Shown: in pieces, positions 50,812-55,429 of the stretch
How positions within the stretch are numbered: position 1 is the stretch's first letter
How the letters are laid out: each line of letters begins with the position of its first letter
NCBI RefSeq assembly: GCF_000696185.1
Contig: NZ_KK853997.1
Location: 2,499,926 to 2,563,925, forward strand
Length of the DNA stretch: 64,000 nucleotides
DNA from: Kitasatospora cheerisanensis KCTC 2395
Lineage (GTDB): Bacteria > Actinomycetota > Actinomycetes > Streptomycetales > Streptomycetaceae
Direction: 5' to 3'
The notes under the pieces: generated by a model
Databases searched by the model: none
What the model was told of the DNA's origin: nothing
What the model saw: the letters and a program-made list of their open reading frames with translations, nothing else
Program-made: the position numbers and the translations under genes

Positions 50812-51567
50812 ATGACGACCCGTCGACTGCGCTACATCGGGAGCAATTCGGGGAACAACGGATGCCCGACGCTGTACGAGGACGAGGAGACCGGGCAGGT
50901 GATCGTGCAGGGCGACCTCGTCACCGACCCTGGCGAGGTGGCTCAACTCCGAAACATCAAGCCCGGCGAGGGGTTCGTGACGGTGCCCCGCGTCCTGCTC
51001 GCGGACTTCGCGCCACGTGCCGCCGAGCGCGAGCCGGTGATGATCAGCTGGGACGAGTTCGAGTCCATGTTCGAGACCCTGAAGCACACGGCCTTCCGGC
51101 TGGAGACCCGACGTCAGTACCGCTCCGACGAGCAGACCGAGACCTACCGCCGGTTCGTGGCCGGCGAGGACCCCGGCTGGGACATGGACGACGCCTGGTC
51201 CCGCAATCGGCGTGAACAGGCAGCGCAGGGCAAGCGGTTCGAACGGGTGCGGATCATGGACAATCCGCCGACTCTCGGGCAGCGCTACCTGCTCGAGAAC
51301 GCCGAACAGATCGGCACGGTGGGTGAGGACGTCCGCTACCTGTGGCGGGAGGACGCGGACCGGCTGGGCCTTCCCCTGGAGGACGCCTGGGTGTTCGACT
51401 CCCGGGTGATCGCTCTGCTGCACTTCGACGCCGACGACCTGCTGACCGGCGTCGAGCTGATCACCGATCCGGTCCGGGTCAACCGCGCCTGCCAGGAGCG
51501 GGACGCCGCTTGGCACTTCGCCGTGCCGCACCGTGAGTTCCGGGCTGGGGTACCGTCCGGCGGGTGA
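50812..51567 (+). CDS. DUF6879 family protein
   Basis: The product is 251 aa from an ATG behind AGGAGGGGAAGAGGG. An N-terminal module of about 65 residues has CPTLYEDEETGQVIVQGDLV. The DUF6879 domain follows (ISWDEFESMFETLKHTAFRLETRRQY... to FDADDLLTGVELITDPVRV). Such proteins are typically encoded directly beside XRE/DUF5753 regulators in Streptomyces (WhiJ-like gene sets). The biochemical role is not known. The stop overlaps the next GTG (GTGA). Confidence 0.85.
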   Translation: MTTRRLRYIGSNSGNNGCPTLYEDEETGQVIVQGDLVTDPGEVAQLRNIKPGEGFVTVPRVLLADFAPRAAEREPVMISWDEFESMFETLKHTAFRLETRRQYRSDEQTETYRRFVAGEDPGWDMDDAWSRNRREQAAQGKRFERVRIMDNPPTLGQRYLLENAEQIGTVGEDVRYLWREDADRLGLPLEDAWVFDSRVIALLHFDADDLLTGVELITDPVRVNRACQERDAAWHFAVPHREFRAGVPSGG

Positions 51568-52404
51568 GCACCGACTTCCAACAGGCCCGATTCGCCCTCG
51601 GTCTGCGGCTGCGCGAGCTGCGGACCGAGGGCGGTCTCACAGGCCGTCAACTGGCGGAGCGCCTCGGATGGACGCAGTCCAAGGTCAGCAAGCTGGAGAC
51701 CGGCCGCCAGACTGCCGCCCATGACGACCTGCGGGCCTGGGCGGAGGGCGTGGGGCAACCCGAGGCGGCGGCCGAGCTGTCGGCCCGGCTTCGCGCCTTC
51801 GAGACACAATCCCGGTCCTGGCGCCGGCAGTTGGCCGCCGGTCACCGGCCGGTCCAGGACCCGACTGACGGTCGAGTACGAGCAGTCGGCCGTCATGCGG
51901 GCCTGGGAGTCGTCCTTGGTCGTGGGAATGCTTCAGACCGCCGACTATGCGCGCCATGTGTTCGAGGCTTATGCCGATCTGCACCGATCGCCGCGAGACA
52001 TCGAGGAAGCCGTCAGCGTTCGCGTTCGACGTCAGGAACTGCTGTACCGAGGCGGCAAGCGCTTTCATGTCGTCCTGTGGGAAGCGGCCTTGCGCGCGAG
52101 GCTGTGCCCGCCGACGGTGATGGCCGCCCAACTCGACCGTCTCAGCGGCGTAATTGGCCTGGACACGGTGATCCTCGGGATCGTTCCCTTCGAGGCAGCG
52201 CTCAACTTGCCGCCCGCCAACGGATTCTGGCTCTACGACGAGCGCCTGGTCATCGCCGAGGACTGGCACGCCGAAATCTGGCTCGACGACCCCGCCAGCG
52301 TGGCGCTCTACCGACGCGTGTGGGAGTCGCTGAACCGAGCTGCCGTCCACGGGCCCGCCGCGCAGCGGGTCATCGCCCGGTGCCGCCAAGCGCTGGACAC
52401 CTGA
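51564..52404 (+). CDS. XRE-family HTH regulator with DUF5753 domain, split by an apparent frameshift
   Basis: The N-terminal helix-turn-helix is LRLRELRTEGGLTGRQLAERLGWTQSKVSKLETGR. From about 51860 the frame changes (GTCCAGGACCCGACTGACGG on the plus strand) and continues as LTVEYEQSAVMRAWESSLVVGMLQTADYARHVF, the usual opening of DUF5753, to RVIARCRQALDT. The parts match one protein of about 280 aa. These regulators often bind inverted repeats near their own locus. One such repeat lies just downstream, ahead of the small peptide gene. Confidence 0.83.
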
Positions 52405-52421
52405 ACCTGGGACAGGCCGCG

Positions 52422-52446
52422 AATTCCCGCCGCCACCAGGGGAATT
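52422..52446. promoter_or_regulatory. AATTCCC/GGGAATT inverted repeat upstream of the 51-aa peptide gene
   Basis: Seven-base arms are separated by 11 bp, in the only gap (52405-52536) between the XRE regulator and the peptide/methyltransferase pair. It is a candidate binding site for the XRE protein. This is the pattern only and has not been tested. Confidence 0.4.
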
Positions 52447-52536
52447 ACGGAGAATCAGACGCCCGCCGTCCAATCCCGGCACCTACCGTGAACAACGGAC
52501 GGAAGCCCGTCCCACCTGGGAGAACAAGGAGGCACC

Positions 52537-52692
52537 ATGCCCACGTTCGACGGCAAGCACGGCGGCGGTACCGGCGACGGTTCCGGTGGCGGTCAGCAGG
52601 ACGACAGCAACAGCGGCAACAAGCACGGTGGCGGCGGCAGCGACGAGGGCGGCAACTCGTCCGACGGCCAGGGCCCGGCGACGGGGCGCTGA
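52537..52692 (+). CDS. 51-aa Gly/Asp/Ser-rich peptide, candidate RiPP precursor
   Basis: The ATG is 4 nt behind a consensus AAGGAGG, one of the best ribosome sites in the window, implying strong expression. The peptide has no Cys, few hydrophobic residues, and about 40% Gly. It contains KHGGG twice (residues 7-11 and 29-33) and Asp-Gly pairs at 5-6, 14-15 and 43-44, plus DDS at 22-24. Its stop is 1 bp from the start of a PIMT-like methyltransferase. Peptides paired with such enzymes are the substrates in imiditide and pamtide RiPPs, where an Asp becomes aspartimide or isoaspartate. That role is proposed here from the pairing and the Asp-Gly content. Confidence 0.72.
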   Translation: MPTFDGKHGGGTGDGSGGGQQDDSNSGNKHGGGGSDEGGNSSDGQGPATGR

Positions 52693-52693
52693 G

Positions 52694-53890
52694 GTGGTGA
52701 CGGCGCGTCAGCACGCGGAGGCCGGTCGCGACCGGCTGGCCTCCGCGCTCATCGCCAACGGTTCGCTGCAACCCGATTGGTTCGCGGCGTACCACGCCGT
52801 TCCCCGGCACCTGTTCGTGCCGGACACGGTGTGGCCGGGACAGGCGGACGGGGTCCGGCAGGGCAGGGCGGTGAGCCGACTGGAGGACCCTGCGGGGTGG
52901 TGGCGGGCGGTGTACGCGGACGTGCCGCTGACCACGCAGTGGGACGACGGGGTGCTACCGGTGCACAACGGCCGGGGCAGCAGCCCGAGTTCGTCCAGTT
53001 CGATGCCCACGATGGTGTTCTCGATGCTCGGGGCGCTGGATGTTGCGGACGGCCACCGCGTGCTGGAGATCGGCACCGGCACGGGCTGGAACGCCGCGCT
53101 GCTGTCGCACCGTCTCGGGTCGGCGAACGTCACCACTGTCGAGGTGGACCGGAACACGGCCGCCGACGCCCGGCACCGGCTCGCCCGGGCCGGATACGCA
53201 CCGACCGCCGTGGTCGGCGACGGCGCGGCAGGGCACCCGCCGGGAGCACCCTTCGACCGGGTGATCGCCACCTGCTCGGTGCGACAGCTGCCGCCGGCCT
53301 GGATCGAGCAGTGCCGCCCGGGCGCCGTGATCCTCGCGCCCTGGGGGCCGGAGTACGGCGGCGAGGCGATTGCGCGGCTGACGGTCGGTCAGGAGGGCGG
53401 CGCCCGCGGCAGGTTCGTCCACTCCTCCGCGTTCATGCGGATGCGCGCCCAGCGCACCACCCGCCCGAACAGCCTCGCCTACCTGTCCGCGCCGTGGCCG
53501 GCCGACGGCGTCCGCTCGACCACCGCCCTCTCGCCGGACCGGCTCGGCGACTGGGCGGCCATGTTCGCGATCGGCGTCCGCACACCGGGCGTGTTTCCGC
53601 TGACGGAGCGCTACCGGGACGGGTCGTACACGCTGTGGCTGCACGACACGGCCGTCACCTCGTGGGCGACGGCCGACTGGGAGCCGGGGCGGGCGGAGTT
53701 CGAGGTGGTGCAGTCCGGCCCGCGCCGGCTGTGGGACGAAGTGGAGTCCGCGTGGCGATGGTGGGACGCGCTGGGCCGCCCGGGGTTCGAGCGCTTCGTG
53801 CTGACCGTCTCCCCGGACGGCACGCAGACCGTCGAGCCGGACCGACCGGGCGTCAGGCCTGGCGGCCCGACAGGGCGAGGGCCCAGGTGA
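52694..53890 (+). CDS. PIMT-like protein O-methyltransferase, candidate RiPP tailoring enzyme
   Basis: The product is 398 aa starting at GTG 52694 (or 52697), 1 bp after the peptide stop. The N-terminal region is of PIMT type, with HLFVPDTVWPG and SSSSSMPTMVFSMLGAL. The AdoMet motif is VLEIGTGTGWNAALLSHRLG and the catalytic-core segment is FDRVIATCSVRQLPPAW. A C-terminal extension of about 190 residues is absent from housekeeping PIMT but present in RiPP-associated versions that methylate Asp side chains and drive aspartimide formation. The 3' end overlaps the convergent DUF1772 gene by 38 bp. Confidence 0.85.
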   Translation: MVTARQHAEAGRDRLASALIANGSLQPDWFAAYHAVPRHLFVPDTVWPGQADGVRQGRAVSRLEDPAGWWRAVYADVPLTTQWDDGVLPVHNGRGSSPSSSSSMPTMVFSMLGALDVADGHRVLEIGTGTGWNAALLSHRLGSANVTTVEVDRNTAADARHRLARAGYAPTAVVGDGAAGHPPGAPFDRVIATCSVRQLPPAWIEQCRPGAVILAPWGPEYGGEAIARLTVGQEGGARGRFVHSSAFMRMRAQRTTRPNSLAYLSAPWPADGVRSTTALSPDRLGDWAAMFAIGVRTPGVFPLTERYRDGSYTLWLHDTAVTSWATADWEPGRAEFEVVQSGPRRLWDEVESAWRWWDALGRPGFERFVLTVSPDGTQTVEPDRPGVRPGGPTGRGPR

Positions 53891-54377
53891 GGCAGCCGAA
53901 GGCGGCGGTGGCGGCGACGGCCCGGACCAGGTTCCAGCGGACCCAGACGTCCTCGAACGCGGCGCGGACGGCGGCCGGGTCGGTGAGGCCGTCGGGCGCT
54001 CCGGCGGCGGCCAGCCGGTCGTTGAGCGGGACGTTCACGGCGCCGGTCACGACGAGCATCACCAGGTAGAGGACGGCGGCGGCGCCGATCCACAGCAGCA
54101 CGGTGCGGTCGCCGCCGCGCCACTGCAGGACGCCCGCGGCGGCGATCAGCAGCAGCGCACCCAGGAAGCTGATCATGAACCAGCCGTTCAGGATGGCCGT
54201 GTTGATGCGCTGCATGGCGTCGACGAACGCCCGGTCGTCGACCTTGGCCAGGCCCGGCATCACCGAGCAGGCGTAGGAGTAGAAGAGTCCGGCGCTCAGG
54301 CCTGCGGTGAGGGTCGCGCCGATCAGCGTCAGCGTGCGGAGAACTGCCATGCCGTGGGACCCCGTTCGTTCGGTCAT
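53853..54377 (-). CDS. DUF1772 (anthrone-oxygenase-like) membrane protein
   Basis: The product is up to 174 aa, with an alternative ATG ten codons downstream (MAVLRTLTLIG). Four hydrophobic helices are seen, with the conserved NxPLNDRL-type NVPLNDRLAA and the Arg/Trp-rich VRWNLVRAVAATAAF near the end. Such proteins include putative anthrone oxygenases and many of unknown function. It is divergent from an AraC regulator that probably controls it. It overlaps the methyltransferase tail to tail. Confidence 0.8.
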   Translation of the reverse strand: MTERTGSHGMAVLRTLTLIGATLTAGLSAGLFYSYACSVMPGLAKVDDRAFVDAMQRINTAILNGWFMISFLGALLLIAAAGVLQWRGGDRTVLLWIGAAAVLYLVMLVVTGAVNVPLNDRLAAAGAPDGLTDPAAVRAAFEDVWVRWNLVRAVAATAAFGCLTWALALSGRQA

Positions 54378-54481
54378 GACGAGCAGTCAACCCGGCGCGG
54401 CGGTCAAGATCCATGGCCGGGAAGCTCGTTGGCATGCGCGAGCGTCCACCCGCCCGGCGACGGCCGTCTACGCTGGCGGCC

Positions 54482-55429
54482 ATGGACGCGCTCGCCGCAC
54501 TGCTGACCGGCCCCCGGGCCCGAGGGGCGTTCCTGCTGCGGTCGGTGTTCGACCCGCCGTGGTCGCTCCGGATCGAGGACCGGGCGCCGCTGACGGTGCT
54601 GACCACGGTGCGCGGCGACGGCTGGATCGTCCCGGACGACGGCGCGCCGGTGCCGCTGCGCACCGGCGACCTGGCGATCGTCCGCGGCCCGGAGCCGTAC
54701 ACCGTCGCCGACCGGCCGGAGACCGCGCCGCAGGTGGTGATCCACCCCGGCCAGGTGTCGACCACCGTCGGCGGCGAGCGGCTGTGCGAGACGCTCGACC
54801 AGGGCGTCCGCACCTGGGGCACCGCCAGGGACGCGGCGACCGTCCTGCTCAGCGGCAGCTACGCCCTGCACGGCGAGGTCGGCGGGCGGCTGCTGCGCGC
54901 CCTGCCGCAGGTCCTGCGGCTGCCCGCCGAGGAGTGGAGCTCCCCGCTGCCGGCCCTGCTGGAGGCCGAGATCGGACGGGACGAACCGGGCCAGGAGGTG
55001 GTGCTGGACCGGCTGCTCGACCTGCTGCTGATCTCCGCGCTGCGCTGCTGGTTCTCCCGCGACGCCCGGCACGCCCCCGCCTGGCACCGGGCGCACTCCG
55101 ACGCGGTGGTGGGCCGCGCGCTGGGCCTGCTGCACGGCGACCCGGCGCGCGCCTGGACTGTGCACGACCTGGCCGCCGAGACCGGCGTCTCCCGGGCCGC
55201 GCTGGCCCGCCGCTTCACCGACCTGGTCGGCGAGCCGCCGATGGCGTACCTCACCGAGTGGCGGCTCGCCCAGGCCGCCGACCTGCTGGCCGAACCGGAC
55301 GCCACCCTCGCGGCGGTGGCCCGCCGGGTCGGCTACGGCAGCGGCTTCGCGCTCAGCGCCGCGTTCAAGCGGGTCCGGGGCCTGAGCCCGCAGCAGTTCC
55401 GCGACCGGGCCGCCGCCGCAGCGGGCTGA
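54482..55429 (+). CDS. AraC-family regulator with cupin_6 sensor domain
   Basis: The product is 315 aa from ATG 54482. The N-terminal cupin-like domain includes IVPDDGAPVPLRTGDLAIVRGPEPYTVAD. The C-terminal double HTH reads WTVHDLAAETGVSRAALARRFTDLVGEPPMAYLTEWRLAQAADLL and LAAVARRVGYGSGFALSAAFKRVRGLSPQQFR. It belongs to the group usually encoded beside a membrane protein or oxidoreductase it regulates. Here the divergent DUF1772 gene is the obvious target. Confidence 0.88.
   Translation: MDALAALLTGPRARGAFLLRSVFDPPWSLRIEDRAPLTVLTTVRGDGWIVPDDGAPVPLRTGDLAIVRGPEPYTVADRPETAPQVVIHPGQVSTTVGGERLCETLDQGVRTWGTARDAATVLLSGSYALHGEVGGRLLRALPQVLRLPAEEWSSPLPALLEAEIGRDEPGQEVVLDRLLDLLLISALRCWFSRDARHAPAWHRAHSDAVVGRALGLLHGDPARAWTVHDLAAETGVSRAALARRFTDLVGEPPMAYLTEWRLAQAADLLAEPDATLAAVARRVGYGSGFALSAAFKRVRGLSPQQFRDRAAAAAG

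Follow-up and report, generated by a model that had tools for sequence, protein, structure and literature searches.

Does a small peptide gene and the methyltransferase gene behind it form a RiPP locus, and if so, which residue of the peptide is modified? We addressed this question for a pair of genes in the window, a 64,000-nucleotide stretch of the Kitasatospora cheerisanensis KCTC 2395 genome. Pamtides and imiditides were defined as a RiPP class only recently; few members have been characterised, and we know of no biological role for them. The initial annotation had read the locus as an imiditide/pamtide-type pair, and this reading held: the two genes are co-conserved and the enzyme groups with type I methyltransferases, with the chemistry assigned by analogy. 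We consider it probable that the two genes make up a minimal type I pamtide (imiditide) locus whose enzyme converts D43 of the peptide to aspartimide/isoaspartate; by the same analogy, the enzyme very probably reshapes one Asp of the peptide.

The peptide gene (52537..52692, forward strand) runs from an ATG at 52537 to a stop codon ending at 52692 and encodes the 51-residue precursor MPTFDGKHGGGTGDGSGGGQQDDSNSGNKHGGGGSDEGGNSSDGQGPATGR. As had been described, it has a consensus ribosome-binding site (AAGGAGGCACC, 52525..52536, forward strand, containing AGGAGG), and its product contains no Cys. One annotated record lists the peptide as a hypothetical protein next to a methyltransferase. The 51 residues include 19 Gly (37%) and 6 Asp (12%), with Pro and Lys at 4% each, and the net charge is -4. 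Published type I precursors are rich in Gly, Pro, Asp, and Lys, and their Pro content of 16.8%, against 4% in this peptide, is like the other figures an average over diverse precursors (PMC10787088). Charge alone does not set this precursor apart, because that of Streptomyces sparsogenes (L115) is also acidic (-5). The CxxCxGxG zinc ribbon of type II pamtide precursors is absent from the peptide, which lacks any Cys. Folding the peptide alone gave no structure (pLDDT about 60), and on its own it is predicted to be unstructured.

Three Asp-Gly pairs had been pointed out in the peptide, and they are present at positions 5, 14, and 43. Their number is expected by chance, as at least three pairs occurred in 41% of shuffles of the peptide composition (P = 0.41), and we rejected the count as evidence. 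Since composition alone predicts the pairs, conservation is the real evidence, and only D43 is conserved. Both copies of the KHGGG repeat noted earlier were likewise found (residues 7–11 and 29–33); the first occurs only in a subset of relatives, and H30GGGG is almost invariant.

The methyltransferase gene (52694..53890, forward strand) starts with a GTG at 52694, 1 bp after the peptide gene, and its stop codon ends at 53890. In agreement with the PIMT-like enzyme recognised initially, the 398-residue product is a PIMT-like peptide aspartyl O-methyltransferase (PAMT) that matched TIGR04188 over its full length (6e-105, 351.5 bits) and the PCMT domain PF01135 (1.4e-23). It contains the GTGTG SAM motif, the SMP active-site motif, and WxxxGxP (WDALGRP), the last of which has been reported in imiditide, graspetide, and lasso enzymes (PMC13001092). 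The large C-terminal extension remarked on before is real, exceeding 100 residues and being of the TmPIMT type, but its length is normal for the TIGR04188 family. The AlphaFold model of the enzyme had a mean pLDDT of 91.4, and the closest PDB structure was 1DL5, the T. maritima PIMT with the same kind of C-terminal domain.

Pairing of the two genes was surveyed in 299 Streptomycetaceae genomes, with enzyme loci counted at about 55% identity or more. The peptide profile matched in 44 of the 299 genomes, and the same peptide lay directly upstream in 47 of the 55 methyltransferase loci, whereas it was upstream of none of the nine enzyme loci just below about 55% identity. The two genes overlapped or lay within a few bases of each other in nearly all loci. 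Among the eight enzyme loci without the peptide, one had an internally deleted peptide (SGNTNDGQGPADGR) and one was an enzyme fragment; the others that we inspected had deletions, were decayed, or were recombined at their front end. Three peptide matches had no listed enzyme, two being remnants and one adjoining a frameshifted enzyme. The pairing in 47 of 55 loci and the deleted, decayed, or remnant state of the exceptions thus indicated that the peptide and enzyme genes are largely retained and lost together. Homologous pairs, which the initial annotation had suggested seeking, are conserved in dozens of species, so that the conditions it had set for refuting its reading came out in favour of that reading; among 297 genomes drawn from the class, the peptide occurred in only two, both Streptomycetaceae. 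A pair of the same kind was found on a 304-kb linear Streptomyces plasmid (NZ_CP108097.1, 229628–230934; peptide MRMWWLTMVDGNPQDDSDSGNKHGGGGSDEGGNTNDGKDPADGK), indicating that the system can travel.

A scan of genome contigs together with a genus search yielded 72 loci with the conserved block of the peptide (Q21–G50). The C-terminal half was almost invariant (QDDSxSGNKHGGGGSDEGGNxxDGxxPAxG), and the N-terminus was variable, with three main styles. Residues Q21, D22, D23, S24, G27, H30–G34, S35, and E37–N40 and, nearer the C-terminus, D43, G44, P47, A48, and G50 were near-fixed, each in about 54–56 of the 57 distinct peptides, and D36 was present in 51 of them. The block had a pN/pS of 0.26, synonymous change being about four times nonsynonymous, and its pN of 0.12 compared with 0.27 in the enzyme, so that this purifying selection constrains the block more tightly than the enzyme. 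Judged from these alignments, the precursor shows an unusual degree of sequence conservation among its Streptomyces relatives. Type I precursors have conserved charged residues at their termini that serve recognition; here, only a final Arg or Lys was common, and the last twelve residues carried an average charge of -0.8 across relatives.

The proposal to align the peptides for a conserved Asp was borne out, and of the sites put forward at that stage D43 stood (55/57 distinct peptides), while D5 (8/57) and D14 (15/57) did not. D43 is thus the sole conserved Asp among the three Asp-Gly sites, although D22 and D23 are conserved as much (55/57). The precursor is of the ~45-residue class, free of Cys motifs, with a conserved Asp near Gly and Pro (D43-G44-x-x-P47). 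D43 was also retained in both natural deletion variants, L055 and L072, the latter lacking NKHGGGGSDEGG. Because it is conserved, followed by Gly, placed in a motif common to other precursors, and kept in these two variants, D43 (codon 52663–52665) is the best candidate target.

When 97 enzymes were placed in a quick maximum-likelihood tree, rooted approximately with two long-branched rows as outgroup, all enzymes with this peptide fell into one clade (SH-aLRT 99) nested among type I pamtide/imiditide enzymes that have ordinary Pro/Lys-rich precursors. The sister clade has precursors such as MGDENKGGEQDGGGGAHAKPGGPAIGPKPSPDGQGPAPDPKHKK, encoded at locus L002 of the same genome and ending in SPDGQGPAPDPKHKK, and the next clade out contains S. 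sparsogenes (L115), the species of SpaM; L115 was taken as SpaA-SpaM by species and gene arrangement. Within the limits of such rooting, the enzyme is therefore nested beside SpaM and the type I enzyme of its own genome. L002 (C3:20200–21473) and L003 (C1:440733) are two further two-gene type I pamtide-like loci of this genome with Pro/Lys-rich precursors. A further PIMT-like domain ends a longer protein at C1:2478785 (L005), about 21 kb before the window start, and is possibly of the FxLD lanthipeptide kind.

The precursors were compared as well. Of 56 peptides in this family, 54 contain DGxxP, as do 17 of 26 other precursors, and DGQGPA is exactly common to this peptide and the L002 precursor. 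Profile-profile comparison of this precursor family with ordinary type I precursors revealed no similarity, and a type I precursor profile run on the K. cheerisanensis genome did not find this peptide. The DGxxP match is therefore suggestive of kinship between the precursor families and does not demonstrate their homology. Charge compensation between the peptide and the C-terminal domain of the enzyme was also considered; the correlation across related sequences was weak and not usable.

Taken together, the locus consists of a small precursor and a PAMT with no primary enzymes of other RiPP classes, and architecture, enzyme, and phylogeny assign it to the type I pamtides/imiditides, with an atypical precursor composition. 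By these sequence features, it falls within an existing RiPP class and has a distinct, unusually conserved precursor. Two-gene pamtides and their reaction have been described (PMC10787088, PMC13001092), and a published survey covers 1,414 type I pamtides with several conservation patterns and could include this branch (PMC10787088). A literature search for the conserved peptide string returned no paper.

Enzymes of this family methylate an Asp side chain, and the resulting ester cyclises to an aspartimide whose hydrolysis yields isoaspartate or Asp; for type I pamtide enzymes a linear substrate suffices, in contrast to those of graspetides and lasso peptides (PMC10787088, PMC13001092), and SpaM is active on its linear precursor (PMC10787088). 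Carrying this chemistry over from SpaM and NmaM, we infer that the peptide is the substrate and D43 the site. The peptide and enzyme would be translationally coupled. With SAM as methyl donor, the enzyme would methylate a single Asp side chain of the linear, otherwise unmodified peptide, the likeliest residue being D43 within N-[ST]-[SN]-D-G-x-x-P. Ring closure through the G44 backbone amide would then give an aspartimide, which may persist or hydrolyse, mostly to isoaspartate. SpaM and NmaM reportedly need a cationic tail, which for SpaM is Lys/His-rich (PMC10787088, PMC13001092). The present peptide is Pro-poor and has no such tail, so its recognition must differ from that by SpaM and should lie in the conserved block. 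We tentatively suggest, as a rather doubtful extension, that the peptides form a distinct pamtide branch in which the near-invariant Gly/His/acidic block (GNKHGGGGSDEGGN) instead of a cationic tail presents D43, possibly via a metal or a turn, and in which the fixed sequence would point to a conserved signalling or regulatory product as opposed to a diversifying antimicrobial. That H30 takes part in metal binding is conjecture.

Upstream of the pair lie a DUF6879 protein gene (50812..51567, forward strand; PF21806, 4e-51), a recurrent neighbour of PAMT loci, and an XRE regulator gene with DUF5753 (51564..52404, forward strand). The XRE/DUF5753 gene had been placed just upstream, and it is there, but its frame is broken near 51859 by a single base that an intact homologue, with 86% identity across 3.7 kb, does not have, and by this comparison it would be either a pseudogene or the product of a sequencing error. 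Clustering of the genes around 49 loci yielded mainly XRE/DUF5753 (23 loci) and DUF6879 (20 loci) as recurring neighbours, counted anywhere in the stretch and in some cases on the opposite strand; DUF6879 lay within 3.5 kb in 14 of the 49. At C1:7824400–7830000 (L144, L004), a second DUF6879-XRE/DUF5753 pair precedes a radical-SAM enzyme and a PAMT-like methyltransferase, with a 69-residue ORF (1736–1945 in L144) between genes. Since pairs of rSAM and PAMT enzymes that lack a known precursor have been reported (PMC10787088), the two regulator genes may serve to mark PAMT clusters. The inverted repeat observed earlier just upstream of the peptide gene, GAATTCCC-N10-GGGGAATT (52421..52446, arms at 52421 and 52439), was recovered as a possible operator and is retained in the closest relative only; a sigma-70 promoter scan found nothing. 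Downstream, an anthrone-oxygenase-like membrane protein gene (53853–54377, reverse strand) converges on the methyltransferase gene and overlaps its end by 38 bp; its product bears a weak, below-cut-off resemblance to ChrI from the chryseobasin system. With the divergent Cupin_6/AraC regulator gene that follows (54413–55429, forward strand), it is apparently a unit separate from the peptide-methyltransferase pair.

We then weighed other explanations of the pair. TIGR04188 (methyltr_grsp) is named after an ATP-grasp system, and this name and the score, 351.5 bits over the whole profile and thus below the curated cut-off of 380 bits, would fit a stranded graspetide methyltransferase whose substrate is first cyclised by an enzyme from another part of the genome. 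However, the K. cheerisanensis genome contains no graspetide ATP-grasp maturase above the family cut-off, and no ATP-grasp neighbour recurs in the clade (49 loci). We thus disfavour this explanation as extremely improbable, and the earlier remark that no ATP-grasp enzyme is adjacent extends to the whole genome, no second conserved modifying enzyme standing out nearby. Strongly disfavoured, and very improbable, is an ordinary isoaspartate-repair methyltransferase beside an unrelated peptide or chance frame: the catalytic domain does match PIMT repair enzymes, but the C-terminal domain, the WxxxGxP motif, and the tree position argue against it, as do the conservation of the peptide (pN/pS 0.26) and the close coupling of the two genes.

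Two further explanations leave the enzyme chemistry in place. Modification might fall on D23 (or D22) in QDDS, or on several Asp residues, with D43-G44 serving recognition. D22 and D23 match D43 in conservation, and the most divergent peptides, L085 and L134, have Asp there (END/EDD) but no longer a DG where D43 would be. On the other hand, L055, which has an intact enzyme alongside, lacks QDDS altogether yet retains NDGQNP; Asp-Gly is the usual site of aspartimide formation, and DGxxP is the only motif common to other type I precursors. We regard a QDDS target as distinctly unlikely. It is also unlikely, in our judgement, that the peptide is the dedicated substrate of an intracellular switch with a regulatory Asp/isoAsp state under the XRE/DUF6879 pair. 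The C-terminal half hardly varies between species and the N-terminus does, unlike in a diversifying antimicrobial, no conserved transporter or protease stands out among the 49 neighbourhoods, and two of the three DUF6879 genes of the genome adjoin PAMT-family loci (this locus and the radical-SAM/PAMT pair at C1:7828349). Against a core switch, the peptide is patchily distributed, with matches in 44 of the 299 Streptomycetaceae genomes, and some copies are decayed, as would suit an accessory trait; other type I pamtide clusters likewise have two genes only (PMC10787088). We therefore retain the type I pamtide assignment with D43 as the putative site.

A near-fixed precursor in dozens of Streptomyces and Kitasatospora species makes it easier to ask what purpose the aspartimide or isoaspartate serves, and since the substrate has no cationic tail, it tests the current charge-based model of recognition.

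The locus can be set beside several known systems. Type II pamtides/cysimiditides (FcaA-FcaM) have the two-gene architecture and a PAMT in common with it, whereas the tetracysteine zinc ribbon is absent here. The group 13 graspetide methyltransferases (TIGR04188 members such as SsfM and AmdM) are of the same family and length as the present enzyme, which has no ATP-grasp partner or ester-cyclised core and scores under the family cut-off. NmaA-NmaM, the imiditide of Nonomuraea maritima (PMC13001092), likewise combines a linear precursor with a PIMT homologue that turns Asp into aspartimide, a chemistry presumed here by analogy. However, NmaA is modified at Asp-His, and its recognition relies on charge-charge contacts to an acidic loop of NmaM, whereas the present peptide is acidic (-4) with Asp-Gly. 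The L002 precursor has SPDGQGPAP where this peptide has SSDGQGPAT but contains 18% Pro and ends in PDPKHKK, and its sister-clade enzyme is 47% identical to the one here. A characterised counterpart in arrangement is SpaA-SpaM of S. sparsogenes (PMC10787088), also a two-gene locus with the precursor directly upstream of and coupled to a PAMT that has the C-terminal domain and WxxxGxP, with no other modifying enzyme. SpaM and the present enzyme are 44% identical, and SpaA shares the Gly-rich N-terminal half and DGxxP near the C-terminus with this precursor, which differs in being Pro-poor, without the HRK tail, without profile-level similarity to SpaA, and in having a near-invariant core block.
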